Shown here one piece after another: positions 46,642 to 63,812 of a stretch of DNA of 64,000 nucleotides. The stretch covers positions 62,001 to 126,000 of the forward strand of contig CANEUH010000007.1 in NCBI GenBank assembly GCA_947441615.1, given 5' to 3'. Every line of letters starts with the position of its first letter. Positions within the stretch are counted from its first letter, which is position 1. Below the pieces are notes generated by a model. It saw only the letters and a list, made by a program, of their open reading frames with translations, had not been told where the DNA came from and ran no database searches. The translations under genes and the position numbers were made by a program. The stretch comes from Bacteriovoracaceae bacterium. GTDB taxonomy: Bacteria; Bdellovibrionota; Bacteriovoracia; Bacteriovoracales; Bacteriovoracaceae.

Positions 46642-46655
46642 CAAAAAGGACAGTT

Positions 46656-47078: not shown

Positions 47079-47080
47079 CA

Positions 47081-48340
47081 ATGAAGCGTACCCATCTATT
47101 TCTAGTATTCTTGATTTGCTCTTTACAGTGCATGGCCAATGAATCGGCTATGAACCTTGAGTTTGAAGATCTGGAAACATTGATCAAAACCAAAAATAAG
47201 AAAGTAGCTGCAACGACACTTGAGCTTAGAGGAGTTGAAAAAAGACTCGGTTATCTTAAGAGGTCTTTCATTCCTACGGGTGAAGCTTGGGTGGGACAAG
47301 AAAAGTTCCAAACAGGTCCTTACGAAACTATGAATGAGCCCATGTACTCTCTGAGAGCAAACGTAAATCTTTATCGAGGCGGAAGAGATTACTTGGAAGA
47401 AGTTTCCCGTAAGGCCCAGAAGTCAGGGATGGAAGTTCAAGCACAGCAAGTTTTTCAGAATGAATTATTTGAAGCTAGGGAGTTGTATTGGAATCTTGTT
47501 TATCTGAGAGAAATTTCTACGCTTTATGAAAGTACATTGAAACAAAATGAAAACAACTTAGGTAAAGCTGTGAAAAGAATAAACTCTGGTCTTTCTACCC
47601 GAGTGGATAGATTAGAATTCGAGATTTCTGAAACTCAATTGAGTCAAGACATGGCCCGGATTACAGTAGCCATTTCAACAACTCAAAGAAGAATTTCAGC
47701 CCTGTTAGGTCTTAATGCTGAAACGCAATTTAACACTATTTCTCAAATTCCTCATGATCACAATGACACAACTCCAACTCAAACTATGGATTTCAATTTA
47801 TTCCGAGATGTCAGACTTGAATTAGCAAATAAGATTGATTTTGAGGCACAAGGGAAAATTTTGAAAAGATGGTGGACACCAAATGTTGATGTCTATGCTG
47901 AATCCATTCTTTATAACTTTCGAGAAAGAAGTTTCTATACTCAGAATGATCAGATTGATAATGCTCTTGGTATTAGGCTTTCATTCCATTTTGATGGTCT
48001 ACAAAGACAGTATGATGGAGAATCATTAATCGCAAAATCATTAGCATCTCAACTGCGTGCAGATCAAATAAAAATTGAAGCTGAAGCCTCATTTAACACT
48101 GCCAGACAAGAACTTGCCCTTCTTCATGAACTGATTCATGAAGGCGAGAAAAACGTCGAAAAGGGTGCTGATTATTTGAGAGAAACACAATCAGAATATG
48201 CAAGGGGAGTAAAGAACTCACCCGATGTATTGAGTGCCACTTTAAAGCAACTTGAATTCAAGAAGAGATTTGCGGAGCTAAGACGTGATTACGCCATTGC
48301 GAAAGCCCAGATTCAATCCTTAATGGCAAGTAACCCATGA
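47081..48340 (+). CDS. TolC-family outer-membrane channel of the metal pump
   Basis: A 419-residue outer-membrane efflux protein with signal peptide (cleavage near CMANES). Two internal halves each contain long coiled-coil helices and strands, as in CzcC/CusC/TolC: the RVDRLEFEISETQLSQDMARI helix and the RGVKNSPDVLSATLKQLEF helix are the family hallmarks. It forms the exit duct of the RND pump. It is coupled to the gene before by a two-base gap. Confidence 0.85.
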   Translation: MKRTHLFLVFLICSLQCMANESAMNLEFEDLETLIKTKNKKVAATTLELRGVEKRLGYLKRSFIPTGEAWVGQEKFQTGPYETMNEPMYSLRANVNLYRGGRDYLEEVSRKAQKSGMEVQAQQVFQNELFEARELYWNLVYLREISTLYESTLKQNENNLGKAVKRINSGLSTRVDRLEFEISETQLSQDMARITVAISTTQRRISALLGLNAETQFNTISQIPHDHNDTTPTQTMDFNLFRDVRLELANKIDFEAQGKILKRWWTPNVDVYAESILYNFRERSFYTQNDQIDNALGIRLSFHFDGLQRQYDGESLIAKSLASQLRADQIKIEAEASFNTARQELALLHELIHEGEKNVEKGADYLRETQSEYARGVKNSPDVLSATLKQLEFKKRFAELRRDYAIAKAQIQSLMASNP

Positions 48341-48411
48341 AAATTTTACAAACATTAAACATCCTGAAAATGAACCTGTTATTGTCCATTTTCAATAAAA
48401 AGAGGTCTGAA

Positions 48412-49071
48412 ATGAGAACATTAATCTCCTTAATCGTTATCACCCTATCACTCGTGGCTTGTAGTAAAAACGACAATCGCATGAAGGAAAAAGCGGCTAT
48501 TGAAAGTGAATCTTCTACGGCTTCTCAACTCCGTGTAGAAAATGAGAATCAAGCTAAAAAAGCTGAAAAGATGGAGCTGGAGCTAGCAAAGCGGCATCGT
48601 TTTTACCAGTCGGTGAAGGGTACATACGAGGGCGAAGTTCAAACAGCGATCGGAAAAATGAAAATAGAAATTACTTTCACACCAAGTAAGGCCCCTGTTA
48701 CTAGAAACCGAGTCCGACAGTTAGAGGAAATTACCACAGAAATTAATGAGCTAAAATTGACCGCTCATGCCATACAGTCGGCAGTAAATATTCCTGAGTC
48801 GGCCGTTGGATGTCCTGGAGTTACTGTAGCTGACGATATCATGAAGGGAGAACTCACAATTTCTTCACCTACCTGTCCTAATCTTTATTTGATTAAGATC
48901 ACAGAGAAAGGAATTACAGAATCTTCAGTTTTAGATTCATTAAGGGCTGCCCAAGTTGCTAACCAAATTTTTAATGGTGATTTAGTGGAAATTGACAGTC
49001 TTTCAGGTCAGCTTAAGACTTCTACATATGCTTCCAAAGTAAAATTTGTAATTCATAAAGTGGTAGATTAA
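48412..49071 (+). CDS. Lipoprotein of the efflux operon
   Basis: A 219-residue lipoprotein. The frame opens at 48337, overlapping the TolC stop, but the ATG at 48412 follows AGAGGT and opens a signal ending SLVACS (Cys17). The next 50 residues form a coiled coil (ESESSTASQLRVENENQAKK), then a domain with a Cys pair (VGCPGV and SPTCPN). It is too short and lacks the repeated lipoyl halves of a standard adaptor, yet its coiled coil and lipid anchor are what an adaptor would need. Function unknown. Confidence 0.55.
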   Translation: MRTLISLIVITLSLVACSKNDNRMKEKAAIESESSTASQLRVENENQAKKAEKMELELAKRHRFYQSVKGTYEGEVQTAIGKMKIEITFTPSKAPVTRNRVRQLEEITTEINELKLTAHAIQSAVNIPESAVGCPGVTVADDIMKGELTISSPTCPNLYLIKITEKGITESSVLDSLRAAQVANQIFNGDLVEIDSLSGQLKTSTYASKVKFVIHKVVD

Positions 49072-49073
49072 TT

Positions 49074-50357
49074 ATGAGAAATTTAGCATTATTAATTTTA
49101 TTTATTCCAATTCTCAGTTGGGGTCAATCTACTCAAGAAGTTAAGATCAATCTAAAACAAGTTGTTGATAAGGTCAGTACTGAGAATTATAGCGTTTATC
49201 AGAACTCACTCAGAGTTTATCAAGCTAAAGAATCTATAACAGTAGCAAGAATGAACTTGCTGCCAAGGCTTAATCTCTGGAAACTTGCTAGTGCAGCATT
49301 GGAAATTTTCGCAGGCGGGCCTGCGGGTGCGGCGGCTGGTGGATTCTCAATTGTCGAAGATATCGCTCCATTCTTAGTTCCTGCCAACTGGTTTCGTGTC
49401 AGCCAAACTAAACTTTTTTATCAAGCTGATTTACAGGGATACAAAGCTTTGTGGGCAAATGAAGTGTTAACTTCAAAAGCACTTTACCACCATATTCTTT
49501 TAGACTCTTCTTTGAAGGATCATATTCGTAGAAGCCAAGTTGACCTAGAGAAGATTTACCAAATTGTTAAAGTAAGAGAAACATTTGGCGGATCTCCTCA
49601 AAAAGTTTCCCAAGAAATTAAAATTAGATTATTGGCGCTTGATGAAGATTTAAGAGCTCTTGAAGTACTCATTTCGGAAGAAGAAAGCCTCCTGGCTTTT
49701 TTGATGGGTTATCCGACTGGTACAAGATTGAAAGTTACCGAAATAGACATGCCTGATTATGACTCACTGGAGCATCTGGATTATGAAGATTTTGAATTTA
49801 GAGCAGTAGATGTCTCTCCTGAGGTTAAGCAATTTGAATATTTTATTGCAGCTGCGGACTATGCGCGGAAAGAAGTAAGTTATGCCTTTCTAGGCGCCTC
49901 TAGCCTTAGCCGGGGATTGAATGGGGGCATTTTTGATAATCTGCCTGTTCAGTCAGGACTTGGATTCGGTACTGGTGCATCTATCAGAATTGTTAAAAGT
50001 CAGAAGGAAATATTGAAAGTTCAGAAAAAAGCCGTTGAAGAAACTGTACGTAGAAGTTTAAGGCAACTTGTTAACAATTATAATTTGGACGTAGATAATT
50101 ATAAAAATCTTAAGGCCCGACAAAATCTTACAAGGAATGGTTTGCAGCAGCTTTATCAAAGAATTCAGTTCGGCGAAAATGTTGATTCACTCCAGCTTGT
50201 TGAGTCTTCCAGGAATCTCATCGAAGCTGACACTTCTATGTTTAGTGTAATGTTTAGATTTCTGAATAGCGAAGATAAGCTGTCAAGGTTGATATTTCAT
50301 GGCGATTACACAAAAGCAAAAGATGCTTTAAGTCGCATTCAAGAGGAAAAAGAATGA
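49074..50357 (+). CDS. Second TolC-like outer-membrane protein
   Basis: A 427-residue exported protein (signal ending LSWGQS). It has the long coiled-coil helices of TolC-type channels, for example LTSKALYHHILLDSSLKDHI, EETVRRSLRQLVNNYNLDVD and NVDSLQLVESSRNLIEADTS. A glycine/alanine-rich insert (FAGGPAGAAAGGFS, about 75-90) is unusual. It is distinct from the channel at 47081. It follows the lipoprotein gene by two bases. Confidence 0.65.
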   Translation: MRNLALLILFIPILSWGQSTQEVKINLKQVVDKVSTENYSVYQNSLRVYQAKESITVARMNLLPRLNLWKLASAALEIFAGGPAGAAAGGFSIVEDIAPFLVPANWFRVSQTKLFYQADLQGYKALWANEVLTSKALYHHILLDSSLKDHIRRSQVDLEKIYQIVKVRETFGGSPQKVSQEIKIRLLALDEDLRALEVLISEEESLLAFLMGYPTGTRLKVTEIDMPDYDSLEHLDYEDFEFRAVDVSPEVKQFEYFIAAADYARKEVSYAFLGASSLSRGLNGGIFDNLPVQSGLGFGTGASIRIVKSQKEILKVQKKAVEETVRRSLRQLVNNYNLDVDNYKNLKARQNLTRNGLQQLYQRIQFGENVDSLQLVESSRNLIEADTSMFSVMFRFLNSEDKLSRLIFHGDYTKAKDALSRIQEEKE

Positions 50358-50794
50358 AAGCAATAATTTTCTTATTACTAATAAGTATGGGTAGTGTTTA
50401 CGCACAAGATATTTCTGGATCTGTTTCTAATATTACCAAACTTAAAGGTGAAGCTTTAAGTACGCTAGGATCAACTCCCTACAGAGCAAAAGAACATCAG
50501 CTAATCAAAGATTACTTCGTTGGTTTAATGGAGTTTTCTGTTCAAGCCCGGGATAATTCCAAGATGAATCGACGTCTTAATAGTTATCTTGCAAGTGGGG
50601 ATATTGCTAAATTCTGTTCTGATATCCTTCTTGATACTAAGGATTGGAATCAGATTAAGCAAAATTGTACACGTAATCGATTTTTCTTGTGCTCAGAAGA
50701 AGTGAACGAATTTCCAGAGTTTAAGAAAACTCTAAGCGGGAGTCTTTCTCCTGCCAATCTGGAAATTTTTAAAAATACTCCTGCGTGCCAGTAA
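50354..50794 (+). CDS. Exported hypothetical protein
   Basis: A 146-residue protein with a signal peptide (cleavage near VYAQD). The mature part is helical with four cysteines, and no family is recognised. It overlaps the stop of the second TolC-like gene by four bases (ATGA), so it belongs to the same transcript. Confidence 0.5.
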   Translation: MKAIIFLLLISMGSVYAQDISGSVSNITKLKGEALSTLGSTPYRAKEHQLIKDYFVGLMEFSVQARDNSKMNRRLNSYLASGDIAKFCSDILLDTKDWNQIKQNCTRNRFFLCSEEVNEFPEFKKTLSGSLSPANLEIFKNTPACQ

Positions 50795-50808
50795 AATTGA
50801 AGGGAAAT

Positions 50809-51099
50809 ATGAAACTTTTTTTAATATTGCTATTTGTTTTAGCTTTTTCTGGATGTTCTCATCATCATAATAAAACTGAACATCACCATCATCAGTTCAA
50901 TAAGAAATGTGCTTACGAAGTTAGTTTGAATCACCTTGATGTTGAAGGAAAAGAAGAATTTAAGTTTGAACATGAGAACGAAGTCTATTATTTCTCCAGC
51001 AAAGAAAATATGCAGAAGTTTAAAGCTGATATTCAAGCGAATATTTCAAAGTCCAAGACCAATTGGAAAAAGGGCCCTCCTTCCAGTAGGAGCAATTAG
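50809..51099 (+). CDS. His-rich lipoprotein with YHS-like domain
   Basis: A 96-residue lipoprotein. The frame opens at 50785, but the ATG at 50809 follows GAAGGGA and opens a signal ending FSGC (Cys15). Immediately after the lipidated Cys come SHHHNKTEHHHH, a strong metal-binding stretch. The rest, KCAYEVSL, then EFKFEHENEVYYFSSKENM and QKFKADI, follows the pattern of YHS domains found in metal-handling proteins. It precedes the P-type ATPase by 46 bases and may donate metal or buffer it. Confidence 0.6.
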   Translation: MKLFLILLFVLAFSGCSHHHNKTEHHHHQFNKKCAYEVSLNHLDVEGKEEFKFEHENEVYYFSSKENMQKFKADIQANISKSKTNWKKGPPSSRSN

Positions 51100-51145
51100 G
51101 CCATTGTAGCTTTTTCCTAATTTTTCTTCACATTAAAGGTCATCA

Positions 51146-53332
51146 ATGGGCAAGTCATGTTGTGGGACTGATACTGATAAAAATGATAATTCAAATGAAA
51201 ATGGTCACATTGATGGAGCTGTAACAACATCCTTCAAAGTATCTGGAATGGACTGCTCTGATGAAGTCACTGCTGTTCAGAAGGCTTTAAATCTGCCAAA
51301 GGTTAAAAAAGTCGATGCAAACATAATGACAGAAACGGTAACTGTTTATCATGATGCGGACTTGGATAACAAATTGATTCGGAGCCTAATCGAGAAAGCA
51401 GGATTGAAAGTCGTTGTTGAGACTGGGCAGTCTTTCTTCAAAGATCATTCTAGAAGGATATACTTAGTAGTCATAAGTGGTTTCACGCTTACAGTAGGGC
51501 TAATTTTAGACTGGTTTGAATTCCACAACATTTACTTCATTTATTTATCCTATGCAATTTCAATCATAACTGCCGGGTCCATTATACTTCCTAAGGCTTG
51601 GCGATCAATTATCAAGTTTAGCCTCGATATGAATGTGCTGATGACGGTTGCCGTAATGGGAGCCATCTTTCTCAAAGAGTACTCAGAAGCAGCTAGCGTT
51701 GTTTTCTTATTTTCGTTGGCTGAACTACTCGAAGCTTTGAGCGTCTCAAGGGCCAGGAAAGCTATCAGAGACGTTTTGAAGGTTACTCCCAAAGAGGCAT
51801 TAGTGCTCAATGAAGAAGGTGAAACTACCGCTAGGGAAGTGGAATCTTTACAGATTGGAGACCTGGTATTAATTCGACCAGGAGATAGCATTCCTATAGA
51901 TGGCGTTATCTTTGAAGGAGTTTCCACAATTAATCAAGCTTCCCTTACTGGTGAATCTAAGGCTGTTGAAAAGAAAAAAGATGAAGAGGTATATACTGGG
52001 ACTATAAATGAGTCGGGTGTACTAAAAGTAAAAGTTCAAAAACGTTTTCAGGATTCTAAAATTTCACAAATTATCTCGATGATTGAAGATGCCCAAAAGG
52101 ACAAAGCTCCTTCTCAAAGATTTGTAGATAAATTTGCTTCAATCTATACTCCATCGGTGATGGCCCTGGCCCTGCTGGTGGCTATTTTACCACCTTTGTT
52201 TTTTGGTGGAGTATGGCAAGAATGGATTTATAAAGCGCTCGTTTTACTCGTTGTTGGGTGTCCTTGTGCTTTAGTGATAGCCACTCCGGTATCCGTAGTT
52301 TCTGGCCTTACATCGCTGGCCAGGAGAGGGATACTTGTTAAGGGTGGAGTTCACTTAGAATCGTTAGGTCGGCTCAAAGCAATTGCCCTTGATAAGACAG
52401 GCACAATTACTAATGGGACCCCTGAAGTTTCGGGAATGAAACTTTTTTCTGATGAATCTGAGGAAGAATGTATAAGGCTTACAGCATCTCTCGAAAGCAT
52501 GTCTTCACATCCCTTGGCTCTTGCAATCCTCAAACACGCCAATTCTAAAAATGTAGCCTACAAGCATCCTGAAGATTTCAAGTTAATTACTGGAAAAGGT
52601 GCCGAAGGTAAAATCGATGGCCATCAATACTTTGTAGGTAATCACAATCTGGCTCATGAGTTGGGAGTTTGTTCGGCTGAAGTCGAAAAATATCTCGATC
52701 AAGAAGAAACAAAATCAATGTCAGTGATTGTTTTGGGCCACAAGCCACATCATGACTGCAAAGGCGAAATTCTCGCAATATTTTCCTTAGGTGACACTTT
52801 AAGACCTAATATTAGTTCTGCAATCTCAGAACTTCATAAAGCTGGTTTGCAATTTGTGGGCATGCTGAGTGGAGATAATCAAAAGACAGTTGATGCTGTT
52901 TCTAAAACAGTAGGAATTGATTATGCGAAGGGTGGTTTACTACCAGAGGACAAGGTCAAAGAAGTTAAGGCTATGGTTGCAAAATATAAATATGTGGGAA
53001 TGGTTGGTGATGGAGTAAATGATGCTCCGGCATTGGCGAATGCAACAATAGGCATTGCAATGGGAATAGTAGGTAGCGATACTGCGATTGAAACAGCAGA
53101 TGTGGCTCTTATGAAAGACGATATCTTCATGCTACCAAAGGCCATAAGTCATGGCAGACAGGTTTTAAACGTCATTAGATTCAACATTGCCTTCGCGATT
53201 GCAATCAAGCTTGTATTCTTCGTCCTGGCTTTTATGGGAATGACAAATTTGTGGTTAGCAGTCGCTGCTGATATGGGTGCATCTTTGTTTGTTACGTTTA
53301 ATGCTTTGAGACTTCTTAAAATGAGAGATTAA
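51146..53332 (+). CDS. P1B-type metal-exporting ATPase (ZntA/CadA-like)
   Basis: A 728-residue pump that exports Zn(II), Cd(II) or Pb(II) using ATP. Residues 1-20 hold SCCGTD, then an HMA domain (28-95) with the CadA-like motif GMDCSDEV (only one cysteine of the usual CxxC). Eight transmembrane helices, the phosphatase motif TGES, the membrane CPC motif in VVGCPCALVIATP (about 370-382), the phosphorylation motif DKTGTITNG (about 416) and GDGVNDAPAL (about 621) are all present. The CPC motif and CadA-like N-terminus point to the Zn/Cd/Pb subclass. It is the last gene of the plus-strand metal operon. Confidence 0.93.
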   Translation: MGKSCCGTDTDKNDNSNENGHIDGAVTTSFKVSGMDCSDEVTAVQKALNLPKVKKVDANIMTETVTVYHDADLDNKLIRSLIEKAGLKVVVETGQSFFKDHSRRIYLVVISGFTLTVGLILDWFEFHNIYFIYLSYAISIITAGSIILPKAWRSIIKFSLDMNVLMTVAVMGAIFLKEYSEAASVVFLFSLAELLEALSVSRARKAIRDVLKVTPKEALVLNEEGETTAREVESLQIGDLVLIRPGDSIPIDGVIFEGVSTINQASLTGESKAVEKKKDEEVYTGTINESGVLKVKVQKRFQDSKISQIISMIEDAQKDKAPSQRFVDKFASIYTPSVMALALLVAILPPLFFGGVWQEWIYKALVLLVVGCPCALVIATPVSVVSGLTSLARRGILVKGGVHLESLGRLKAIALDKTGTITNGTPEVSGMKLFSDESEEECIRLTASLESMSSHPLALAILKHANSKNVAYKHPEDFKLITGKGAEGKIDGHQYFVGNHNLAHELGVCSAEVEKYLDQEETKSMSVIVLGHKPHHDCKGEILAIFSLGDTLRPNISSAISELHKAGLQFVGMLSGDNQKTVDAVSKTVGIDYAKGGLLPEDKVKEVKAMVAKYKYVGMVGDGVNDAPALANATIGIAMGIVGSDTAIETADVALMKDDIFMLPKAISHGRQVLNVIRFNIAFAIAIKLVFFVLAFMGMTNLWLAVAADMGASLFVTFNALRLLKMRD

Positions 53333-54616: not shown

Positions 54617-57070
54617 CTAAATGTTCCATAATTCAGGAATATTCTTTGAATAGATTTCTTTAATCCAAGCTGGTTTTGATATTGATTCAGGCGAATATCC
54701 TGTCGCTAGATAAATATTAGTGAATCCTTTTTTGAAAATTTTCTCAGACTCAATTTCACCCTTGATGTTATCTTTGAGATTCGAATCCACATAAATACCT
54801 GAGGATAAGTCATGCAGGTGTTCATCGACTAAGAAATCATTTATTGTAAAATACGTCTTAATCTCTCGGTTCGCTCTTGAAGCGCTTCTTTTCCAGCTTA
54901 AATGAACCAATTCGTCGTCATCAATTAAGATAATAGGGTTCTTTGCTTCTTTGGAAGTACCAATAGGTACGATTGAGGCCATGCACTTAGGAAGAATTTT
55001 AATATTGTGATTTTGAGTTTCTTTCTGAATATGAGTTTCATCATATCTGGCAGTAACTAGAATGGAATTATTGCTTGATCCAAGTTTCTTGATGCATTCC
55101 AAACCAGTCGATTCTTCTCCCAGCAATTCATAGTCAGACAAGAGTATTTTATGCTGCGGTATTGAATTATACTGTTCTAATAATGTAGCAGCGGAAAAGA
55201 AATGTTCTAGTTGAACTTTTGATGAGGCAAAGCGCTTTTTCCAAACTTCGTGAATATTTGCATCATCATCGAGAATAATGACAGATTCGATTTTCGAAAG
55301 GTTGATTGAATCGGGAAAGTTTTTAGGAGTTACATCTTTGGGCAAGTCTAAGACCACGCTTGTTGCATTATCTCTTTGGATGAAAATCTTGCCCCCAATG
55401 GCTTCAATTTCTGTTTTTGCACTATGAAGGCCAAGTCCATTACCGTCAGCCTTAGTGGTAAAACCTTTTTCAAAAAGCTGTTTCTCAAAATCTGGTGCTA
55501 TACCGGGACCATTATCAGTGATGGTTATCCTAGAGGTTAATCCATTATCAGTTAGCCTTACATTTATAGTACCCTTGTACATTGTCGCTTCTGCACCATT
55601 TGTTATGATGTTGGAAATAATTCGCTTAAATGTAACTGGACTAATTTTTGAGAACGAGGAAAAGGATTTCTCATCATAAGAAGCAATAATTTCTAAGAGA
55701 TCATAATTTCGATACTGCATTCTTTTCTCAATAAGAATTTGTTCAATTTGTGAAATAAGATGATTTGGAGTTTCTTTGCCATTATCGTAAGATCTCGACT
55801 TCAATAAGTTGTATGCGATTTCTTCTATCCGATTGATAGCAATCAAGACGCTTCTTCTACCGTCTTCGGGCAGAATCAAAAACTCGTCCTTCGAGGCTTT
55901 GAGAGCTTCCAGAGGCGACCTGATATCATGGGCAAGTTGGATAGATTGTCTGCCTACTTTTGCTTCCACCTCAAGATCATTTTCCTTTCTGAAGAAAGTT
56001 TCCCATGAACGCTTAAGACTTAAAATCTGATCAAAAATAAGTAGGAATATAAAGGTTCCCAGGCCTACTTGAAGCAGAGGAGTAGTTGAAATAAATCTAA
56101 GATCATTTAGATTGTCGTTAATATTTGCAGCAAGCAAAGTGATGAGTCCAACCTTGAGTGGTAGCTTACCAGGAGATGACTTAAAGACGGTATAAATTGA
56201 TATAAGAATGAAGAAAGGGGAGATATGAAACCATAATCTTCCTACTGAGGCAGCTTCCATCAAAGTCTCGCTACAGAGAATTGCAGTGATTAAAGCAGAA
56301 GCAACTAATGATAGAAGTGCCTTATAAGGCTTTGAGCAGTACTTGGTTGAATAGATGGCCACTATCCAGATAGTTGTTACACTTGAAACGAGTGTTGTCT
56401 TATAAACAGGTAGCATATCAAAGAAATGATAACCCAATCTGCCTCTACAAATTCCAAGTATAAAACTTGAAAGACTAAGCATGAAAATCAGAACCTGATT
56501 TCTCCATAGCAGCCTAGGTGCAAAGAATGGGAATGAGATTGCAGCTAGGACCAAGCATAATAGGGGAATTACTATCTTTGAAAGATTATTTGAAAGTTCC
56601 TGGACATATTTCTTATGGTCTAAGACTTTTGCGGTGCTGACTTCGAAGTTCGCTGGGTTGAAGCCCTTGTTTACTAAAAATTCGACATAGACAAGAATAC
56701 GGATCTCGTTTAGTCCGGTCGATTTCAACAAAGTTTTAGGAATATAATAGTTTCTCTCAGTATCCATGTTGTAGGTGAAATTTGGGGGAAACTCACCAGT
56801 TTGGCCAATCTGAATGTCATTGAGAAACGCTTTGTCGGCATCGCCAATTTTGCCCAAGTAAATACTTAACTCTTCAGACGTATTATCGACTTCTAATGAG
56901 TTTCTATATTCAATAAACCCACGATATTCTCGTGTAACGGCCGTAGAAGGATTCTTTAATGGTTGCCACTTAGAATTATCCCTTTGCTTGAGCGAAGTGA
57001 ATGTTCTGAACTCCCAGTCACTGGCAAATGCACTTGATATCAATAAACATAGTAGAAGGGCAATTTTCAT
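54617..57070 (-). CDS. 7TM-type hybrid histidine kinase with two receiver-like domains
   Basis: An 817-residue membrane kinase. After a signal peptide, residues 20-150 form a periplasmic jelly-roll-like sensor domain. About 160-350 hold seven predicted transmembrane helices (7TMR-DISM layout). The DHp helix has the phosphoacceptor His381 in QLAHDIRSPLEAL. The ATPase domain shows NIITNGAEATM, TDNGPGIAP and GNGLGLHSAK. Two receiver-like domains follow (about 597-708, VIILDDDANIHEV and LLSDYEL; 712-817, IILIDDDELVHLSW and YVDSNL). The gene is last in a coupled operon with a methyltransferase, a DHp-like peptide and a sigma-54 activator; its ATG overlaps the methyltransferase stop. Confidence 0.85.
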   Translation of the reverse strand: MKIALLLCLLISSAFASDWEFRTFTSLKQRDNSKWQPLKNPSTAVTREYRGFIEYRNSLEVDNTSEELSIYLGKIGDADKAFLNDIQIGQTGEFPPNFTYNMDTERNYYIPKTLLKSTGLNEIRILVYVEFLVNKGFNPANFEVSTAKVLDHKKYVQELSNNLSKIVIPLLCLVLAAISFPFFAPRLLWRNQVLIFMLSLSSFILGICRGRLGYHFFDMLPVYKTTLVSSVTTIWIVAIYSTKYCSKPYKALLSLVASALITAILCSETLMEAASVGRLWFHISPFFILISIYTVFKSSPGKLPLKVGLITLLAANINDNLNDLRFISTTPLLQVGLGTFIFLLIFDQILSLKRSWETFFRKENDLEVEAKVGRQSIQLAHDIRSPLEALKASKDEFLILPEDGRRSVLIAINRIEEIAYNLLKSRSYDNGKETPNHLISQIEQILIEKRMQYRNYDLLEIIASYDEKSFSSFSKISPVTFKRIISNIITNGAEATMYKGTINVRLTDNGLTSRITITDNGPGIAPDFEKQLFEKGFTTKADGNGLGLHSAKTEIEAIGGKIFIQRDNATSVVLDLPKDVTPKNFPDSINLSKIESVIILDDDANIHEVWKKRFASSKVQLEHFFSAATLLEQYNSIPQHKILLSDYELLGEESTGLECIKKLGSSNNSILVTARYDETHIQKETQNHNIKILPKCMASIVPIGTSKEAKNPIILIDDDELVHLSWKRSASRANREIKTYFTINDFLVDEHLHDLSSGIYVDSNLKDNIKGEIESEKIFKKGFTNIYLATGYSPESISKPAWIKEIYSKNIPELWNI

Positions 57071-57894
57071 ATTTGCCTCTTAATCCAAATAAGCTCATGG
57101 ATTGGGTTCATTATCCCGTTACCGTCTTGGAAAATCGGAGTTAAAACTTCATTAAGCGCTTTAACATGGCTCAATGAAAGTTTTGTGAAATCATGGTTTA
57201 AAATAAAAGAGAAGAAGGTTTTGCCTTCTTCAGAAAATTCATCTTTCTGCCATAGACCATTTAGGTCGACGTTTGTTTTTATTTCTTGCCTTTGAATCTT
57301 ATACTTCTTCAGTTGTTCAAGCCCATTTAGGACTGGCAATAAGATATCTGTGCTTCCATGCTTGGAAACTTCTGCAAGCTCTGGATGGGTTTTGATTGGA
57401 TGCCTGCTAGTGCCCATCATGATTGCAATCGAGCCATTTACATTGAGGGACGAAGCAAGGCTTTGTAGAATCATTGGATTTACGTGGTAAAAGACATAGC
57501 TAGCAATTATTAAATCTTGCTTATCTTTTGGAAGGTAGTCCTCTACATTTTCGGCTGAACAGTTCTTCAAAATAATATTGTTAGAAACACTCTGGATTTC
57601 TTTTTTAGCATTCTGTAAAGATTCGTTCGCTGGTTCTACAAGTGTAATCTCCATATTTTTGATATGCAGTTTAGCAGTGAGTGCTTCAAGATATTGTTTG
57701 CTCATTTTACCGTTACCACAACCGATATCAAGTACCCGTTTAAAATCAGAAGATGTAACCTGTGCAGCAAGAGAGGCAGAAAAGGTGTTTAGTATTTGTT
57801 TCCTGAAGTCAGTTCTTTCTAAGAATATTTGGTATCCTTGTTCATACCATGAACTATCAGACGTCTCTGTTTTATAGCTTGATTGATTTCTCAT
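57067..57894 (-). CDS. SAM-dependent methyltransferase in the sensory operon
   Basis: A 275-residue class I methyltransferase. Motif I is VLDIGCGNGKMS, the acidic motif II ITLVEPANESLQN, and the DLIIASYVFYHVNP segment is motif IV. The fold and spacing resemble small-molecule methyltransferases such as the histamine-type group, rather than RNA or DNA enzymes. Its position between the DHp-like peptide and the histidine kinase, with four-base overlaps on both sides, suggests that it makes or modifies a signal for the kinase, or modifies a regulator. Neither is proved. Confidence 0.75.
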   Translation of the reverse strand: MRNQSSYKTETSDSSWYEQGYQIFLERTDFRKQILNTFSASLAAQVTSSDFKRVLDIGCGNGKMSKQYLEALTAKLHIKNMEITLVEPANESLQNAKKEIQSVSNNIILKNCSAENVEDYLPKDKQDLIIASYVFYHVNPMILQSLASSLNVNGSIAIMMGTSRHPIKTHPELAEVSKHGSTDILLPVLNGLEQLKKYKIQRQEIKTNVDLNGLWQKDEFSEEGKTFFSFILNHDFTKLSLSHVKALNEVLTPIFQDGNGIMNPIHELIWIKRQI

Positions 57895-58091
57895 GGCTTT
57901 TGTCCAGCGATGTAGTTGGTCAGTTCATCCAATTTTGAAATTGATTGGCTTTCTCGTTCCAGACACATCTCAAGCATACTTTTAAGTTCAGTATCCAGCT
58001 CAAGATCTTCTTGTTTGATAAACTTTATTAAGTTCATCATATTATAAAAATCTCTTCTGAGATCATGCTGGATTTCATTCAGAGTAATCAT
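57891..58091 (-). CDS. 66-residue DHp/HPt-like helical peptide
   Basis: A two-helix protein, 66 residues, with LNEIQHDLRRDFYNMMNLIKF followed by a second helix CLERESQSISKLDELTNYI. The first helix resembles the H-box of histidine kinase DHp domains (HDLR compared with HDIRSP in the kinase of the same operon), with His9 as the candidate phosphoacceptor. No catalytic ATPase domain is attached. Its ATG overlaps the stop of the sigma-54 regulator and its stop overlaps the methyltransferase start, so expression is strictly coupled. It may be a phosphotransfer or kinase-binding module. Confidence 0.55.
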   Translation of the reverse strand: MITLNEIQHDLRRDFYNMMNLIKFIKQEDLELDTELKSMLEMCLERESQSISKLDELTNYIAGQKP

Positions 58092-59416
58092 GACTTAACC
58101 CTCTTGCTAACATTAATCATGTCTGAAATGGTTGAAATACCAACTTTCATTTTTTTTGCTGCTTGGGTAGGACTGTCTCCATTTCGTTTAAGATATTCGA
58201 GAGCAATTTCCTTTTTAAACTCAGTAATAAATTCTTTAAGCCCTTTCTCTTCAATTTGATCTAGTTGATGCTGAGTGAATAACTTTTTCTGAGGTGCAAG
58301 GTTGTAACGAATCCGATGGGGGATTGCTTCAGGAGTAATCAGTCTATGGCCATTAACAATCCAGTTTTCAACCAAGTCTTGTATTTCTCTAGTGTTTCTT
58401 GGCCAGGAATATTGTTTCAGAATTTCTTCTGTTTCCTTTTCCATAACAATCTGAAAAGGGTGCTTAGAAATAAAATATTCAAACAATGGGAGAATATCTT
58501 CTGGACGCTCCCGCAACGGCATAAGATTAATTTGGAAGGTGCTTATCCTGGCAAATAAATCTTCGCGAAATAATCCTTGTTCAATCAGGGAATGGATGTT
58601 TTCGCAAGTTGCGGCAATGATCCTGAAATCAGATTTTGTTGGAATGTTTGAACCAACTGGAAAAAAGATTTTCTCTTCCAGGGCTTTTAGTAGCAGTTTT
58701 TGAACATCTAAAGTCAGCGCATGTATTTCATCTAAGAAGATGATACCGTTATCAGCTTTTTGGAGTAGCCCTATTTTATCAGCACTAGCACCAGTAAATG
58801 ATCCGGCCTTATGTCCAAAAAGCTCACTTCTGACTGTATCTCCCGTAAACTGAGAGCAGTTTACTTCTAAGAAGTTTTTACAACCGAGAGTGTCCCTAAT
58901 GAGATGAGATACCACACGTTTTCCGGTACCTGTTTCACCTTCGATAAAAATAGGCTTGTCGGATACACCTAGATTCACAATTTTTGAAAGCTCAGAAATC
59001 TGCTTATTACTTCGAGTGATGAAATTTCTTCTGATAGTTTGAGAGAATTCTCTTTCTTGTTTGTTAACCTGGAATCTTTTAAGGACAGAATCCAATTTAA
59101 GGTCATCGAAGGGTTTGATTAAGTAATCTTTGGCCCCATTTTTTAGCGACTTTTGAATGATATCCCTATCCGCTTCACCGGAAATGACGATCGGGTACGC
59201 TTTGGACTCTTGGGATAGCTTTACGAGGTTTAGGCCATCTAGCTTTCCATGAAGGTTTAAATCTAAGAAAGCGAGATCATATCTCTTGCTCGCCAACAGC
59301 TTAGAAGCTTCTTCCGACGTAGAGACTGATTCTACCTTCCCGAAACGGCTCAGGATTCGCTCTGAAGTCTTTTGGGTAAAGAGGTCATCCTCAACCAGAA
59401 GTATGCTTAAATTCAT
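58088..59416 (-). CDS. Sigma-54-dependent response regulator (NtrC family)
   Basis: A 442-residue activator. The receiver domain (1-118) has the acidic pocket ED-D at 9-11, phospho-Asp52 in FLDLNL and Lys101. The AAA+ domain has Walker A GETGTGKR at 160-167, the sigma-54-contact loop GSFTGA at 205-210 (the usual GAFTGA with Ser for Ala), and Walker B IIFLDEIH at 225-232. A Fis-type helix-turn-helix is at the C-terminus (SPTQAAKKMKVGISTISDMI). The ATG at 59416 is eight bases after GGAGG; an upstream ATG is too close. It is first in the sensory operon and divergent from the transfer operon. Confidence 0.88.
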   Translation of the reverse strand: MNLSILLVEDDLFTQKTSERILSRFGKVESVSTSEEASKLLASKRYDLAFLDLNLHGKLDGLNLVKLSQESKAYPIVISGEADRDIIQKSLKNGAKDYLIKPFDDLKLDSVLKRFQVNKQEREFSQTIRRNFITRSNKQISELSKIVNLGVSDKPIFIEGETGTGKRVVSHLIRDTLGCKNFLEVNCSQFTGDTVRSELFGHKAGSFTGASADKIGLLQKADNGIIFLDEIHALTLDVQKLLLKALEEKIFFPVGSNIPTKSDFRIIAATCENIHSLIEQGLFREDLFARISTFQINLMPLRERPEDILPLFEYFISKHPFQIVMEKETEEILKQYSWPRNTREIQDLVENWIVNGHRLITPEAIPHRIRYNLAPQKKLFTQHQLDQIEEKGLKEFITEFKKEIALEYLKRNGDSPTQAAKKMKVGISTISDMINVSKRVKS

Positions 59417-59456
59417 TTCCATGGCCTCCTTTAACCAAATCATTTGTTACTTCGCA

Positions 59457-59559
59457 ACGAAATTTCGAAACAGGGCACGGAAAACCGTAGTCTTTGCATG
59501 GTGCCCTGCATTATTCTGGGCCCCTGACGGAATCCCGTTAAAAGCTTTCGGAATTTCGT
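59457..59559. promoter_or_regulatory. Array of four related 12-bp dyads (candidate activator sites)
   Basis: Four similar inverted repeats lie between the regulator and the transfer operon: ACGAAATTTCGA at 59457, ACGGAAAACCGT at 59477, ACGGAATCCCGT at 59527 and TCGGAATTTCGT at 59548. Starts are 20, 50 and 21 bases apart, so they form two pairs separated by about two helical turns each. The second overlaps a longer inverted repeat CAGGGCAC/GTGCCCTG (59471-59478 and 59501-59508). They lie 40-145 bases upstream of the sigma-54-like element, the usual place for upstream activator sites. Confidence 0.6.
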
Positions 59560-59599
59560 AGCCTATAAATCCCAAGTAGCTATTTCTCCGTCCAAAATC

Positions 59600-59616
59600 T
59601 TGGCCCTCAGCTTGTA
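59600..59616 (+). promoter_or_regulatory. Candidate sigma-54 promoter of the transfer operon
   Basis: TTGGCCCTCAGCTTGTA has the -24 GG (59602-59603), ten spacer bases, and -12 GT (59614-59615) where GC is canonical; the TTGG, C, TTG and terminal A positions match the consensus. Transcription would start near 59627, giving a leader of about 54 bases with a small CACTCA/TGAGTG hairpin (59628-59654) before the first ATG. Confidence 0.5.
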
Positions 59617-59680
59617 ATAGGCAGTCTCACTCAACTCAAACAACTGGGTGAGTGTTTAACAAGTTAAAGGGGAATAGATC

Positions 59681-59818
59681 ATGAGCAAATTCATTAAAGG
59701 CATCTGGATTTTCATTACTGACAAAATTCAAAACGGAAAAATTGGATTTAGAGAAGCTCGAGATATCCACGAAGCAGCTATTGGAAAAGTTTTGGCCCTC
59801 TACTGTCAACAATACTAA
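59681..59818 (+). CDS. Small protein at the head of the transfer operon
   Basis: A 45-residue open frame with AAAGGGGA nine bases upstream of its ATG. The product is amphipathic (FIKGIWIFITDKIQNGKIGF, then a helix ending ALYCQQY). No homologue recognised. It is eight bases upstream of the sigma-region-4-like gene, which supports expression as the first gene after the candidate sigma-54 promoter. Confidence 0.5.
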   Translation: MSKFIKGIWIFITDKIQNGKIGFREARDIHEAAIGKVLALYCQQY

Positions 59819-59826
59819 GGAGCAAA

Positions 59827-60069
59827 ATGAGATTCACCCCAAAAGATATCGAAGTAGTAAGAAATGGTCTGAGTTTTTTAACATTCTTGGAAAGACAAAT
59901 TTTGATCTATCGGTTTTGGGAAGAAAGAACAATTGAAGATATCGCTGAAATTTTAGAGATGTATTGGGACGAGGTTGACTCCTATATTGAAGATTCGCTC
60001 AAGAGTCTTAGAAAATACTGCCTAGAGCATCCTAGTTTTAGCCTTGGCGTATTTATGGAAGCGGCTTGA
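59827..60069 (+). CDS. Sigma region 4-like DNA-binding protein
   Basis: An 80-residue protein resembling isolated region 4 of sigma-70-type factors: NGLSFLTFLERQILIYRFWE, then ERTIEDIAEILEMYWDEVD and SYIEDSLKSLRKYC follow the L-LERQVL--R----T--EIA--L---V------ALKKLR pattern. Region 2 is absent, so it cannot be a complete sigma factor. It may act as a late-gene switch or anti-/co-sigma protein for transfer genes. It is the second gene of the transfer operon. Confidence 0.6.
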   Translation: MRFTPKDIEVVRNGLSFLTFLERQILIYRFWEERTIEDIAEILEMYWDEVDSYIEDSLKSLRKYCLEHPSFSLGVFMEAA

Positions 60070-60251: not shown

Positions 60252-60659
60252 ATGAAATCACTTAAAAGCATCTTCGATGAACAAGATCTGACGTTCTATA
60301 AATTTCAGATTTTTGTGAAAGACAATGATAGGACCAAAACGATTGGCATGGCATTTCTCAGAGAAGGTCAGACTATTTACACATTAAAGATTTGGTCTTT
60401 CCTAAGTGAGAAGTTCTATTTGCTACCTACTAAAGATGATCCTAAAAAGTTCTTTTTGATGACCAGAGAACCAAACAGGTCAGGATCAAAAAATAAATAT
60501 CTTTGGAACATCATTGGCAATGCTTCTGCGAATTCGAGTCAAACAGAGTTAGTAATTAACTTTGATGTATTAGATAAGAAAATTTATTTGAGCATGTATC
60601 CAACAGAAACATTTAATCCAAAAACAAATTCTTCACTTGAGTGTGAAGTGGCAGCTTAG
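60252..60659 (+). CDS. Hypothetical protein of the transfer operon
   Basis: A 135-residue cytoplasmic protein preceded by AAAGGGGAC. The middle has strand-rich segments (FLREGQTIYTLKIWSFLSEKFYL) and the end is acidic. The pattern recalls small single-stranded-DNA or RNA-binding beta-barrels, but no family can be assigned. It lies 17 bases before trbC. Confidence 0.5.
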   Translation: MKSLKSIFDEQDLTFYKFQIFVKDNDRTKTIGMAFLREGQTIYTLKIWSFLSEKFYLLPTKDDPKKFFLMTREPNRSGSKNKYLWNIIGNASANSSQTELVINFDVLDKKIYLSMYPTETFNPKTNSSLECEVAA

Positions 60660-60676: not shown

Positions 60677-60964
60677 ATGAAACGAAACGAAACTTTTTTA
60701 CTGCTTGCATTCATTATTGGCGTGGGGATTATCTTCCCTGACATCTCATATGCTGGATTAGAGACAAGCTTAATGGGTATCAAATCAAAGCTAACTGGAG
60801 TTATTCTGCCTCTCCTTTCAGTCATCGGCATTGCAATAGCTGGGATTTCTTTCTTTACCGGAAATCCGAATGCCAAACAACATATTTGCTATTCGATCAT
60901 TGGTTGCATGATTGGATTTGGTGCTCAAGGAATTGTTGATTTCATCTCACAGACAGTCCGGTAG
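60677..60964 (+). CDS. trbC: Conjugative pilin TrbC (VirB2-like)
   Basis: A 95-residue prepilin with a long signal/transmembrane leader (MKRNETFLLLAFIIGVGI) and cleavage near SYAGLE, followed by two hydrophobic helices around a short loop (GVILPLLSVIGIAIAGISFF and the later CMIGFGAQGIVDFI). The size and two-helix layout are those of TrbC/VirB2 pilins. Position directly before trbD and trbE confirms the assignment. Confidence 0.8.
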   Translation: MKRNETFLLLAFIIGVGIIFPDISYAGLETSLMGIKSKLTGVILPLLSVIGIAIAGISFFTGNPNAKQHICYSIIGCMIGFGAQGIVDFISQTVR

Positions 60965-60970
60965 GGAAGG

Positions 60971-61312
60971 ATGGAAGACGATGGTCTATTGACTACCAAA
61001 GTTCCGAGGGCCTTAGAGTTAAAGAGTAAATTGTTTGGGTACGAACTTCCTGATTTGCTCATGATTTTCTTTAACCTGGCAATTACGAACCTTCTATTTG
61101 GTGGAACTAGTCTTCGATATCCATTGGTATGGGGAACAACGCTTTTCTGGGCGTTGCTCCTCTATTTTGCCAAAAAGGGTCGTCCAGACAGTTTCATTCA
61201 GCATCTTGGTGAGTTTCTTGTAAGGCCGGCGTACTTCGCGGCGGGAAGCACTGATCGAATAGCTAGAAAATTTAAGAGGAGAGGTACAAATGCTTCAGAA
61301 GAAACAACTTGA
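60971..61312 (+). CDS. trbD: Mating-pair formation protein TrbD (VirB3-like)
   Basis: A 113-residue inner-membrane protein with two transmembrane helices (LLMIFFNLAITNLLFG and VWGTTLFWALLLYFA) and the N-terminal PRALELKSKLFGYELPD, matching the TrbD/VirB3 family. It overlaps the start of trbE by 23 bases. It is essential in related T4SS for pilus assembly by the TrbE ATPase. Confidence 0.8.
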   Translation: MEDDGLLTTKVPRALELKSKLFGYELPDLLMIFFNLAITNLLFGGTSLRYPLVWGTTLFWALLLYFAKKGRPDSFIQHLGEFLVRPAYFAAGSTDRIARKFKRRGTNASEETT

Positions 61313-63812
61313 TCCTAGTTTGGCGGAAGAGCTGCCTTACTGGGATTTTTTTGAAGATCCAAAAGCTCATGCCATTCTGAGTGATGGCTCGTTGGTAGGT
61401 GGAATTGAGCTTCAGTTGCTTGATATCGAATGTCTTGATGAGCGGGACATTAATCATTTCACTATGGGAATTCGATCAGCACTCAATTCAATTTCTGAGG
61501 GGGTATGTGTCCAATTTCATTTAACAGTCGGTTCAGATTTTGGGGATCTGATTGATAAGCATGTAAATGGTAAGCGAAGAGATCTTCACCCACTTGTAAA
61601 AAAGATTGCTGATTACAGAGAAACTTCACTGTTAAATTCCCTTTATGCTGGGGATCTGTATAAGCCGTCACTAAGGATTTTTGTTCGCACACCAATGCAA
61701 ATGATAAAAAAACCGGGATTTTTAAAGAAGAAAGAAAGCTTTTCAATTCTTGCATCTGAAAACTATCAAGAGACTCTTGAATTACTTGGGCAGAATCTTG
61801 AAGCGTTAAGTTCTTCTTTTAGTTCCTTAGGCTTGAAGGTAACCGCACTTGGTAAAGCTCAGTTGATTGACCAAGTTTATTCTTTCATGAATCCAAAAAG
61901 AGTAAAAACTGAAGCTTCACCAAAGCTTATCAATTACAGCGAAGATGACTTAGACAGTACAATTATCCATGAGGAAGCCTGGTTGGCATCTCAGTCTGCT
62001 AGAGAACAACTTGTTTTTGGAGATCTTGTACTGGGCTTTGAGCAATTTACCTTGAACTCATTTTTTCATAAAGTGATAACACTCAAGACTCTTCCTGAAA
62101 TGACTTTCTCCGGCCAGCTGGCAAATTTTCTGAGATTGCCTTTTCACTACGATTTATTTCTTTCCTTTGAAGTACCACCCCAAGCTTCAGAGATGTCGAA
62201 ATTGAATCAAAAGAGGAAAATGGCGCATTCATTAGCTGCTACTCAAGGAAACAAAGCAAGTGATCTTGAAAGCGAGACAAAGCTATCTTCCACTGAAGAA
62301 CTAATCCGCGAACTCTTAAGCACCGGACAGCGTATTTACGCGGCTCAAATGACTATCATTCTAAAGGCCCCAGCTACCAATGAAGGAACTAAAACCCTTA
62401 ATAGGCAAACAAGGGAAGTACTTTCCAGATTTAGATCTTTACAGGGTGCCGAGGGACTAGAAGAAACTGTTGGGGCTTGGAAAATTGCCAAAGGGAATTT
62501 ACCTGTGGCCCCAATTTCACTCGAGAGAGCTAGGAAAATGAAGACAAATAACCTGGCTGACTTTCTACCCATTTATGGATCTAGAGAAGGAGACCTGGAG
62601 CCAGTAGTTATTTTCAGAAATCGCTTGAATGGTCTAGTGAGTTTCAATCCCTTTGATCCTGGGCTATCGAACTACAATGCTCTTGTCACAGGTTCCTCTG
62701 GTGCAGGGAAAAGTTTCTTGAATAACTGTATCCTGGCCCAAGAGCTGGCACGGGACCTAAGGGTTTTCATTATTGATATCGGTGGTTCTTACAAAAAGCT
62801 TACTGAATCACTAGATGGACAATATCTCGAAGTAAATATTACTGATGGTTATTGCTTGAACCCGTTTGACATTGCCGACATCGGAATTGGTCCTACAGAT
62901 CAAAAATTAAAATCTCTGCTCGCAATCGTAGAAAGTATGATTGTTGAAGATGACAGACCTAAGCTTCCGAAGCTGGAGAAGGTATTACTTGAAAAAGCTA
63001 TAACTGAGCTTTATCAAGAGAAGCAGAATTCTAATTCGATTCCAATCCTAACCGACTTAAGAGAAAAGCTGGCTAAATCTCCAGAAACATCGATGCAGCA
63101 AATTGCAAAATTACTGTACATGTGGACGGGTAATACCCCTTTTGGAAAATTGCTTGATGGAATGGGTTCTTTAAAAACAAATTCTTCAATCTGTACTTTT
63201 GACTTGAAGGGATTGTCATCTTACCCAGATCTTCAAAGTGTGATGATTTTAATTCTTACGGATTTCATTCTTAACCAAGTAGAAGGGGACCGTTCATGCA
63301 AAAAGCGAATCATTCTGGACGAAGCATGGGCATTACTTAAATCAAATGCAGCGGCAAGCTTCATGGAATATTGCGCGAGAACGTTAAGGAAATCAGGATC
63401 GGGAATTACATTTATCACTCAAGGAGTGGAAGAAATTGTAAGTAGTCCTATCGGGGCTGCGATTCTCAACAATACAGCTACAAAGTTCATCATGCTTCAA
63501 CGTGGAGACTCAGAAATCTTGAGAGATACTCTTAAACTAAATGATCAGGAGCTGAGTCTCATTTATTCTCTGGAGCAAAGGAAAGGGGAGTTTTCAGAAG
63601 GATTCATGATTGAAGGCGATCACAGACAAGTTGTTAGGATCTTTCCATCGCCCTTTGAATATTGGCTTTCAACCAGTGATGCAGCTGATAATAATCATTT
63701 GGACCAACTAAAACTTAAAGGCTTGAGTCTGTTAGAGGCCATTGAGGAAGCCGCAGCTAAGTATCCGAAAGGAATTTCTCAAGGGAAATCTCTGATAAAG
63801 GAGGTTCAGTGA
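61290..63812 (+). CDS. trbE: T4SS ATPase TrbE (VirB4-like)
   Basis: An 840-residue cytoplasmic/peripheral ATPase that energises mating-pair assembly. The CagE/TrbE/VirB N-terminal domain spans about 150-400. The ATPase domain has Walker A GSSGAGKS at 468-475, the FIIDIGGSYKKL segment, a Walker B in RIILDEAWALLKS (about 674-685), a SGSGITFITQG motif and NTATKFIMLQ. The length is typical of VirB4 homologues. It starts inside trbD (GAGAGGTACAA before the ATG) and is followed by trbJ with a four-base overlap. Confidence 0.93.
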   Translation: MLQKKQLDPSLAEELPYWDFFEDPKAHAILSDGSLVGGIELQLLDIECLDERDINHFTMGIRSALNSISEGVCVQFHLTVGSDFGDLIDKHVNGKRRDLHPLVKKIADYRETSLLNSLYAGDLYKPSLRIFVRTPMQMIKKPGFLKKKESFSILASENYQETLELLGQNLEALSSSFSSLGLKVTALGKAQLIDQVYSFMNPKRVKTEASPKLINYSEDDLDSTIIHEEAWLASQSAREQLVFGDLVLGFEQFTLNSFFHKVITLKTLPEMTFSGQLANFLRLPFHYDLFLSFEVPPQASEMSKLNQKRKMAHSLAATQGNKASDLESETKLSSTEELIRELLSTGQRIYAAQMTIILKAPATNEGTKTLNRQTREVLSRFRSLQGAEGLEETVGAWKIAKGNLPVAPISLERARKMKTNNLADFLPIYGSREGDLEPVVIFRNRLNGLVSFNPFDPGLSNYNALVTGSSGAGKSFLNNCILAQELARDLRVFIIDIGGSYKKLTESLDGQYLEVNITDGYCLNPFDIADIGIGPTDQKLKSLLAIVESMIVEDDRPKLPKLEKVLLEKAITELYQEKQNSNSIPILTDLREKLAKSPETSMQQIAKLLYMWTGNTPFGKLLDGMGSLKTNSSICTFDLKGLSSYPDLQSVMILILTDFILNQVEGDRSCKKRIILDEAWALLKSNAAASFMEYCARTLRKSGSGITFITQGVEEIVSSPIGAAILNNTATKFIMLQRGDSEILRDTLKLNDQELSLIYSLEQRKGEFSEGFMIEGDHRQVVRIFPSPFEYWLSTSDAADNNHLDQLKLKGLSLLEAIEEAAAKYPKGISQGKSLIKEVQ

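Follow-up and report, generated by a model that had tools for sequence, protein, structure and literature searches.

How the timing of conjugation is set in Gram-negative predators and their kin is, to our knowledge, little known. The question is raised by a 64,000-nucleotide stretch of a Bacteriovoracaceae genome (contig CANEUH010000007.1, positions 62,001 to 126,000; hereafter the window), in which a four-gene sensory operon lies divergent from a trb-type operon for a type IV secretion system (T4SS). Comparison with related loci makes it likely that a phosphorelay encoded by the mobile element itself switches on conjugation, through a chain that comprises a methyltransferase-linked signal, the relay, an array of dyad sites and a sigma-54 promoter of the trb operon, and that forms part of a modular series. 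Within this chain, good support for element-encoded sigma-54 control of the transfer operon comes from the association of NtrC-type activators with T4SS operons, from sigma-54-like sites directed at those operons and from a conserved promoter element with conserved dyad places. A preliminary description of the locus had proposed that a signal made or edited by the methyltransferase is sensed by the kinase and that the phosphorylated activator turns on transfer; the sigma-54 part of that proposal is borne out by comparison, whereas the signal-making part can be put forward as probable.

The sensory operon is a minus-strand chain of four open reading frames (ORFs) running from 59443 down to 54617, with ATGA overlaps at all three junctions, just as first described. 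It encodes a sigma-54 activator, a 66-residue peptide, a methyltransferase and a hybrid kinase (Table 1). The activator consists of a receiver (Asp61), an AAA+ domain and a C-terminal helix-turn-helix-like region (recognized by eye). By motif the receiver is phosphorylatable in the manner of NtrC-type receivers (FLDLNL with Asp61, and LIKPF), and GSFTGA at residue 214 is the equivalent of the GAFTGA loop that marks the sigma-54 interaction domain of NtrC-type AAA+ proteins. The kinase comprises, in order, a hydrophobic N-terminus, a jelly-roll domain, seven transmembrane (TM) helices, DHp (His381), CA, REC1 (Asp646) and REC2 (Asp762). In the structure model of its N-terminal part (mean predicted local distance difference test, pLDDT, 75) a beta-sandwich is followed by seven long helices, in keeping with the 7TM kinase of the preliminary description, although the Pfam 7TMR-DISM model gave no match to it. 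The outer domain resembles the jelly-roll domain of glycoside hydrolase family 2 (GH2) enzymes (Foldseek E about 1e-4).

In the mechanism proposed here, the kinase, with its jelly-roll ligand domain outside and DHp-CA-REC1-REC2 inside, would respond to a small molecule made or modified by the neighboring methyltransferase. Phosphate would then move in turn through kinase His381, REC2 Asp762, peptide His9 and activator Asp61, a route suggested by anatomy and gene co-occurrence. The phosphorylated activator would bind four predicted CG-N6-CG dyads, which have comparative support, as two pairs and would drive sigma-54 RNA polymerase at the -24/-12 element, so that the trb operon is transcribed. 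The cassette would be one of a modular Bdellovibrionota series in which either this relay core or a two-protein version, combined with an exchangeable enzyme and sensor, stands upstream of T4SS operons.

The layout, which the preliminary description did not know from described conjugative elements and whose gene order it proposed to look for in other Bdellovibrionota elements, proves to be recurrent in Bdellovibrionota. Loci read in genomes of this phylum are designated by L-numbers; they are kin to each other, so that counts of them are not independent trials. TrbE relatives were searched in 129 genomes of the family, and 41 of the 51 places listed were read. Where a trb-type operon of the family has 7 kb or more of DNA before it, an NtrC-type activator lies upstream in 20/20 cases, or in 17/17 when three loci found through the peptide are set aside; with at least 3 kb upstream the figure is 23/28, all five misses having no more than 6.5 kb. 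The chance of meeting such a gene per 12 kb is about 0.02, a figure based on the density of six NtrC-like genes in the window's own genome, five of which satisfy the strict cut-off. A kinase gene occurs in the same stretch for 19 of the 20 operons (exception L099), and in 19 Pfam, or a BLAST match to a relative that Pfam names, identifies a neighbor as an enzyme or exporter; the twentieth, L087, shows no more than weak likeness to a YcaO protein. In other families, where 21 of 56 listed TrbE places (mostly those with the best scores) were read, 11 of 17 trb-type operons with at least 6.9 kb upstream have the activator; upstream DNA is under 3 kb in L154, L155, L161 and L162. These counts exclude seven family contigs with less than 3 kb upstream (L081, L085, L089, L091, L095, L103, L106), two distant loci of F type, L113 (without NtrC at the cut-off) and L114 (where NtrC lies at 10 kb), L115-L118 (no T4SS gene recognized; NtrC present in L115 and L117), L063 (no T4SS recognized) and L141 (too short).

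Similar figures hold among close relatives of a second T4SS type, whose marker is a lipoprotein of 631 aa: of the 20 places read from 80 listed, NtrC was found in 7/8 close relatives and 0/11 distant ones, the cut (at least 48% versus below 46%) being set on the short N-terminal piece present in each stretch, while L143 and L136 are alike by full length (46%). Four loci found through the peptide (L035, L055, L059, L064) stand outside these two counts and inside the promoter count given below. In the activator tree, T4SS-linked activators do not form one clade (five changes), and both T4SS types occur within the window's clade and likewise within the SBP_bac_5-linked clade, which indicates, as far as the tree is a guide, that regulators are exchanged between transfer systems. 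The best TrbE match listed, on Myxococcus stipitatus pYRE, the sole plasmid viewed beyond the phylum, has no such NtrC or kinase gene annotated upstream.

The region between the activator gene and the trb operon offers candidate sites for this control; four related dyads and a -24/-12-like element had been noticed there at the outset. The region holds four CG-N6-CG cores against 0.62 expected (p=0.006), spaced 20, 50 and 21 bp. Because an isolated site says little in the window, where TGGC-N7-TTGC with at most one mismatch occurs 52 times against about 36 expected (49 in the largest shuffle) and TTCG-N6-CGAA 25 times where 23 are expected, the sites were judged by position and conservation. 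Two orthologous loci from other genomes of the same genus, L060 and L062, share the layout, with trb proteins about 50-80% identical. TTGGCCC-N5-TTGTAAT is identical in all three loci. For two of the four window dyads (59478, 59549) the distance to the -24 GG is conserved to within 2 bp across the three loci (0/5000 shuffles), a spacing that shared descent explains in part since the loci are homologous. Perfect TTCG-N6-CGAA sites number three in L060, at spacings of 21 and 50 bp, while the three of L062 have one mismatch and spacings of 22 and 50 bp, L062 containing two CG-N6-CG cores in all; a generic count of inverted repeats is significant in both (0/300 shuffles and p=0.02, respectively). 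The genome has one RpoN gene.

Sites of this kind also occur at related loci, as scored with a hand-written sigma-54 weight scheme on control regions set by hand. Sites with p<0.05 are directed at the T4SS in 16/34 regions and in the reverse direction in 5/34; four of these five reverse sites precede the activator gene (L098, L102, L104, L112), which suggests that the activator may activate itself. Among second-type operons such a site is found in 9/11 having the activator versus 3/12 lacking it, and promoter scores with and without activator differ in the forward (Mann-Whitney p=0.009) and not in the reverse direction (p=0.87), the near-copies L035 and L055 both being inside this set. Full TGGC-N7-TTGC matches occur in some related cassettes, for instance L064 and L130.

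What the kinase senses is approached through the genes that accompany it. At E<=1e-15, relatives of the methyltransferase were found in seven places in 6/368 genomes of the phylum, in a search that scored at most six candidates per genome, and all seven lie beside this sensor type and an activator; one is in another family, where the activator is only 35% identical. Since the subfamily was found only beside this sensor, the methyltransferase probably makes or modifies the signal; what had been a puzzling neighbor at first sight is paired with the sensor in every place found, and a signal would be its putative product. The frame has an internal stop in L060 (12378-13277), and in L170 (1778-2749, genome G113) the relative has a signal-peptide-like N-terminus if started at the ATG overlapping the activator stop (by eye).

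Other cassettes carry other parts. Within the window's clade, the methyltransferase and jelly-roll 7TM kinase occur in the window, L033, L059, L060, L062 and L061, a PNP_UDP_1 nucleosidase with Peripla_BP_6 in L055, LysE with Peripla_BP_6 in L063, a short-chain dehydrogenase (SDR) with a 7TMR-DISM kinase in L064 and a Cupin_5 protein in L034. Other clades combine SBP_bac_5 with an alpha/beta hydrolase; EamA with radical S-adenosylmethionine (radical SAM) and Peripla_BP_6; SDR with a haem-oxygenase-like enzyme and an amino acid (AA) permease fused to Peripla_BP_6; radical SAM/B12 with a methyltransferase and SBP_bac_5; or YcaO with an SBP_bac_5-like protein. Small frames with a hydrophobic N-terminus, placed after the activator or before the enzyme, lie beside SBP_bac_5 sets with radical SAM (L098, L104), weakly YcaO-like (L087, L164, L165) or unnamed (L150) partners; four of them were unnamed by Pfam save for one weak match to a domain of unknown function (DUF) below the cut-off, and it is possible that they are precursors of a modified peptide signal.

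The most economical reading of these sets of maker, exporter and receptor would be that the enzyme makes a mating signal. We tentatively extend it, as an idea slightly less likely than not, to Bdellovibrionota conjugative elements at large: these would carry diversified mating-signal cassettes, each with its own signal maker, its own receptor and a sigma-54 activator, some with an exporter and with or without a free DHp-type peptide, by which donors would count or recognize carriers of the same element before mating. The makers would be a methyltransferase, an enzyme of radical SAM or YcaO type together with a small precursor that is secreted, SDR plus a haem-oxygenase-like enzyme, a nucleosidase, a hydrolase or an acetyltransferase; the exporters LysE, EamA, AzlC and MFS; and the receptors jelly-roll 7TM, SBP_bac_5 and Peripla_BP_6 proteins. 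A doubtful but serious alternative is that the kinase detects a cue from the surroundings, be it a nutrient or material of prey or host, and that what the methyltransferase modifies or removes is this cue, or a protein; a self-made mating signal would then not exist. The likeness of the jelly-roll domain to that of sugar-cleaving GH2 enzymes would suit an environmental sensor, as would the Peripla_BP_6 and SBP_bac_5 sensors elsewhere in the series, proteins that usually bind nutrients; hydrolase, AA-permease and LysE genes are also compatible with nutrient handling, and cassettes L153 and L156 have a sensor and no named enzyme. The pairing of methyltransferase and sensor is nevertheless kept even with a distant activator, and the exporters, the enzymes of the type that acts on ribosomally synthesized and post-translationally modified peptides (RiPPs) and the small hydrophobic-N-terminus frames fit signal making better.

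The free peptide, the other puzzle of the preliminary description, receives a firmer reading: it is probably the phosphotransferase of the relay, because its gene tracks receiver-bearing kinases. At 19/19 loci with a kinase of REC2 type the activator is followed by a small ORF in which a His stands early, compared with 0/19 for receiver-less kinases, which end after their ATPase domain, the classes being assigned by hand. A strict automatic label gives 15/19 versus 0/19 (Fisher p=5e-7, uncorrected for kinship); the four others, L105, L112, L131 and L133, dropped by hydropathy or distance, were added after reading by eye. The 19 ORFs are of 61-77 aa with the His at position 8 to 20, and 11 overlap the activator stop by 4 bp (that of L112 is 160 bp off). 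The pattern extends to other activator lineages: where the kinase has a C-terminal REC2, the gene after the activator is an ORF of 66-77 aa whose His lies at one of residues 9 to 20. Three REC1-only kinases (L087, L164, L165) fit neither class and have a small hydrophobic-N-terminus frame instead. The count leaves out loci with the kinase or activator cut or off the contig (L035, L036, L061, L093, L094, L099, L102, L143, L170), L149 (contig end near the activator), L163 (no activator found; a solute-binding-protein-like, SBP-like, protein and a kinase), L114 and L115.

Relatives of the window peptide itself occur in 12/129 family genomes, in two of which the match sits inside a long frame and is not free; a scan of genome contigs gave four loci, none of them additional, and a scan of viral contigs no peptide relative. 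Eleven free relatives have His9, Asn17, Lys23, Met39 and Glu47 in common, and the model of the peptide is a helical hairpin (mean pLDDT 90). REC2 Asp762 is invariant in 11 aligned kinases (one of which, L039, is a paralogue elsewhere in the window's own genome), whereas REC1 is missing in 3/11. The kinase thus has the C-terminal acceptor receiver of a four-step relay, and kinase His, REC2 Asp, peptide His and activator Asp are what such a relay needs, a scheme with which the co-occurrence of peptide and REC2 fits. An alternative role, in which the peptide merely has the shape of a DHp hairpin and binds the kinase as an inhibitor or connector, is unlikely: the peptide has no catalytic domain, its structural matches are weak, the H-box varies among lineages and Pfam left all six DHp-like small ORFs of other lineages unnamed, yet His9 is invariant in the eleven relatives and the gene follows the C-terminal receiver as a four-step relay requires.

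Against the proposed relay and its control of transfer several observations have to be set, besides the kinship of the loci. The Foldseek search with the peptide gave no significant match; DHp domains (LOV kinase, ERS1, GacS) are among its first rows, none with E below 0.7. In the control region, the dyads and promoter described initially gain support from the cores and from conservation in L060 and L062, but two tests of the window alone are not significant: the generic palindrome count gives p=0.33, so that the window dyads pass the core-motif and position tests only, and the -24/-12-like element, which reads TGGC-N7-TTGT versus TGGC-N7-TTGC with the C of -12 replaced by T, scores p=0.20. 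Six of the 17 operons outside the family have no NtrC in reach, and L129 has a perfect sigma-54-like site though no NtrC was found in the 12 kb read. Well-supported branches of the activator tree are compatible with one origin, so that repeated recruitment is not required. Finally, related cores occur in L034 and G113 contig C91, where the 20 kb read contains no T4SS, and the activator gene is damaged in both. In contig C91 activator, methyltransferase and kinase are present and a transposase-like ORF stands next to the truncated activator; in L034 (6808-8222) the activator frame is interrupted and the peptide, cupin and kinase frames look whole. A rival view, in which the relay controls nothing beyond its own operon and cargo and its adjacency to trb is incidental within a mobile element, would accord with the L034 core beside metal genes and with the sigma-54-like sites before four activator genes, but it is highly improbable given the association inside and outside the family, its extension to two T4SS types and the sites pointing at T4SS operons.

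Table 1. Features of the sensory operon, the control region and the start of the trb operon, in window positions.
Feature	Position	Strand	Evidence
Hybrid histidine kinase, 817 aa	54617..57070	-	Pfam HATPase_c and weak receiver match; motifs; structure model
SAM-dependent methyltransferase, proposed signal-making/-modifying enzyme	57067..57894	-	Pfam Methyltransf_31 3.1e-10; cassette-restricted relatives
66-aa free DHp-like peptide, proposed histidine phosphotransferase, invariant His9	57891..58091	-	11-sequence alignment, model, kinase rule
NtrC-type sigma-54 activator	58088..59443	-	Pfam Response_reg 8.9e-16, Sigma54_activat 4.1e-47; motifs; tree
Dyad 4 CGAAATTTCG, proposed activator site	59458..59467		CG-N6-CG core
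Dyad 3 CGGAAAACCG	59478..59487		Distance to -24 GG within 2 bp in L060 and L062
Dyad 2 CGGAATCCCG	59528..59537		Core at equal distance in L060, none in L062
Dyad 1 CGGAATTTCG	59549..59558		Distance to -24 GG within 2 bp in L060 and L062
-24/-12-like element TGGCCCTCAGCTTGTA, proposed trb promoter, expected start near 59627	59601..59616	+	Conserved in 3/3 orthologous loci
45-aa ORF, apparent first gene of trb operon	59681..59818	+	ORF reading
80-aa sigma-70 region-4-like protein, early trb-operon gene	59827..60069	+	Pfam Sigma70_r4 1.4e-6
Conserved 135-aa protein preceding trbC	60252..60659	+	Relatives before trbC in L060, L062, others
TrbC pilin	60677..60964	+	Pfam TrbC 1.2e-7
TrbD-like protein, named by position	60971..61312	+	Conserved between trbC and trbE; no Pfam match
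TrbE/TraC ATPase	61290..63812	+	Pfam P-loop_TraG 9.9e-41, CagE_TrbE_VirB 1.9e-5

The trb operon starts divergent from the sensory operon, and its assignment as trbCDEJ holds for TrbC and TrbE by Pfam and for TrbD by position; the ORF in the place of trbJ gave no Pfam match. In L060 and L062 a small frame with a GTG start stands where the window has the 45-aa ORF (by eye). Relatives of the 80-aa sigma-70 region-4-like protein head other trb operons (L060, L062, L083, L101, L105, L150, L158), and it may be an operon regulator. Past the window the same contig continues with TraE/TrbF-, CagX/TrbG- and TrbI-like proteins, a weak TrbL match, a TraG-type coupling protein and tyrosine integrases, and for this reason the window likely belongs to an integrative conjugative element (ICE), of whose expected components a T4SS, a coupling protein and an integrase are present; Pfam recognized no relaxase among the ORFs scanned, which were part of the total in an element whose ends are unmapped. 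A metal-efflux cargo at 43522-53332 (resistance-nodulation-division, RND, pump, TolC-like protein and P-type ATPase; names partly by eye) adjoins the sensory operon, and related genes occur near the L034 cassette and near the T4SS loci L138, L157 and L158. Elsewhere, in L035 (2932-4553) and L055 (6802-8411), the T4SS operon is separated from the activator by a gene pair which we take to be AbiEi/AbiEii-like, and L035 has TGTGATC-type dyads near both promoters. Second-type operons lacking NtrC (L136-L140, L142, L145-L147) have an unnamed divergent gene of 265-296 aa upstream of the lipoprotein gene, possibly an alternative regulator.

If the proposal is true, sigma-54 relays whose signal makers and sensors can be exchanged would represent a large family of unread signals governing gene transfer, and the rule linking receiver and peptide is a clean route for testing a minimal phosphotransferase of roughly 66 residues. 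No description of the circuit was found among the matches listed for conjugation in Bdellovibrio and Bdellovibrionota (titles and abstract starts, with most subscription journals outside coverage). ICE-like elements are reported in Bdellovibrio in a paper whose accessible part shows no such circuit (PMC3539863).

Known systems resemble the window in part. Conjugation controlled by signals is established: in enterococcal pheromone plasmids and in Ti plasmids controlled by N-acyl homoserine lactones (AHLs), self-made small signals time donor transfer, but these plasmids use other signal chemistry and other regulators and are not known to have sigma-54 relays in which sensor and enzyme can be exchanged. 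In Agrobacterium, VirA/VirG with ChvE, a hybrid kinase and a periplasmic ligand-binding partner, control a T4SS as well; unlike the window they answer to plant cues, and VirG is not known as an NtrC-type activator. RteB of Bacteroides is presumably kin to NtrC, and TacA of Caulobacter is a sigma-54 activator of NtrC type. Element-encoded two-component control of conjugation is already known from RteA/RteB of the Bacteroides element CTnDOT, which leads to excision and transfer gene expression and in this respect is like the window; it differs in being produced on tetracycline exposure and acting via RteC, and the accessible part of the source mentions no phosphotransfer peptide or paired enzyme (PMC1976400). 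The ShkA-ShpA-TacA phosphorelay of Caulobacter belongs to a cell-cycle circuit with cyclic di-GMP (c-di-GMP) input and, in the part of the account available, shows no methyltransferase or conjugation link, unlike the window; common to both are a kinase that bears REC1 and, at its C-terminus, the acceptor REC2, a phosphotransferase as a protein of its own (in the window a proposed one) and a transcription-activating response regulator (PMC7010744).

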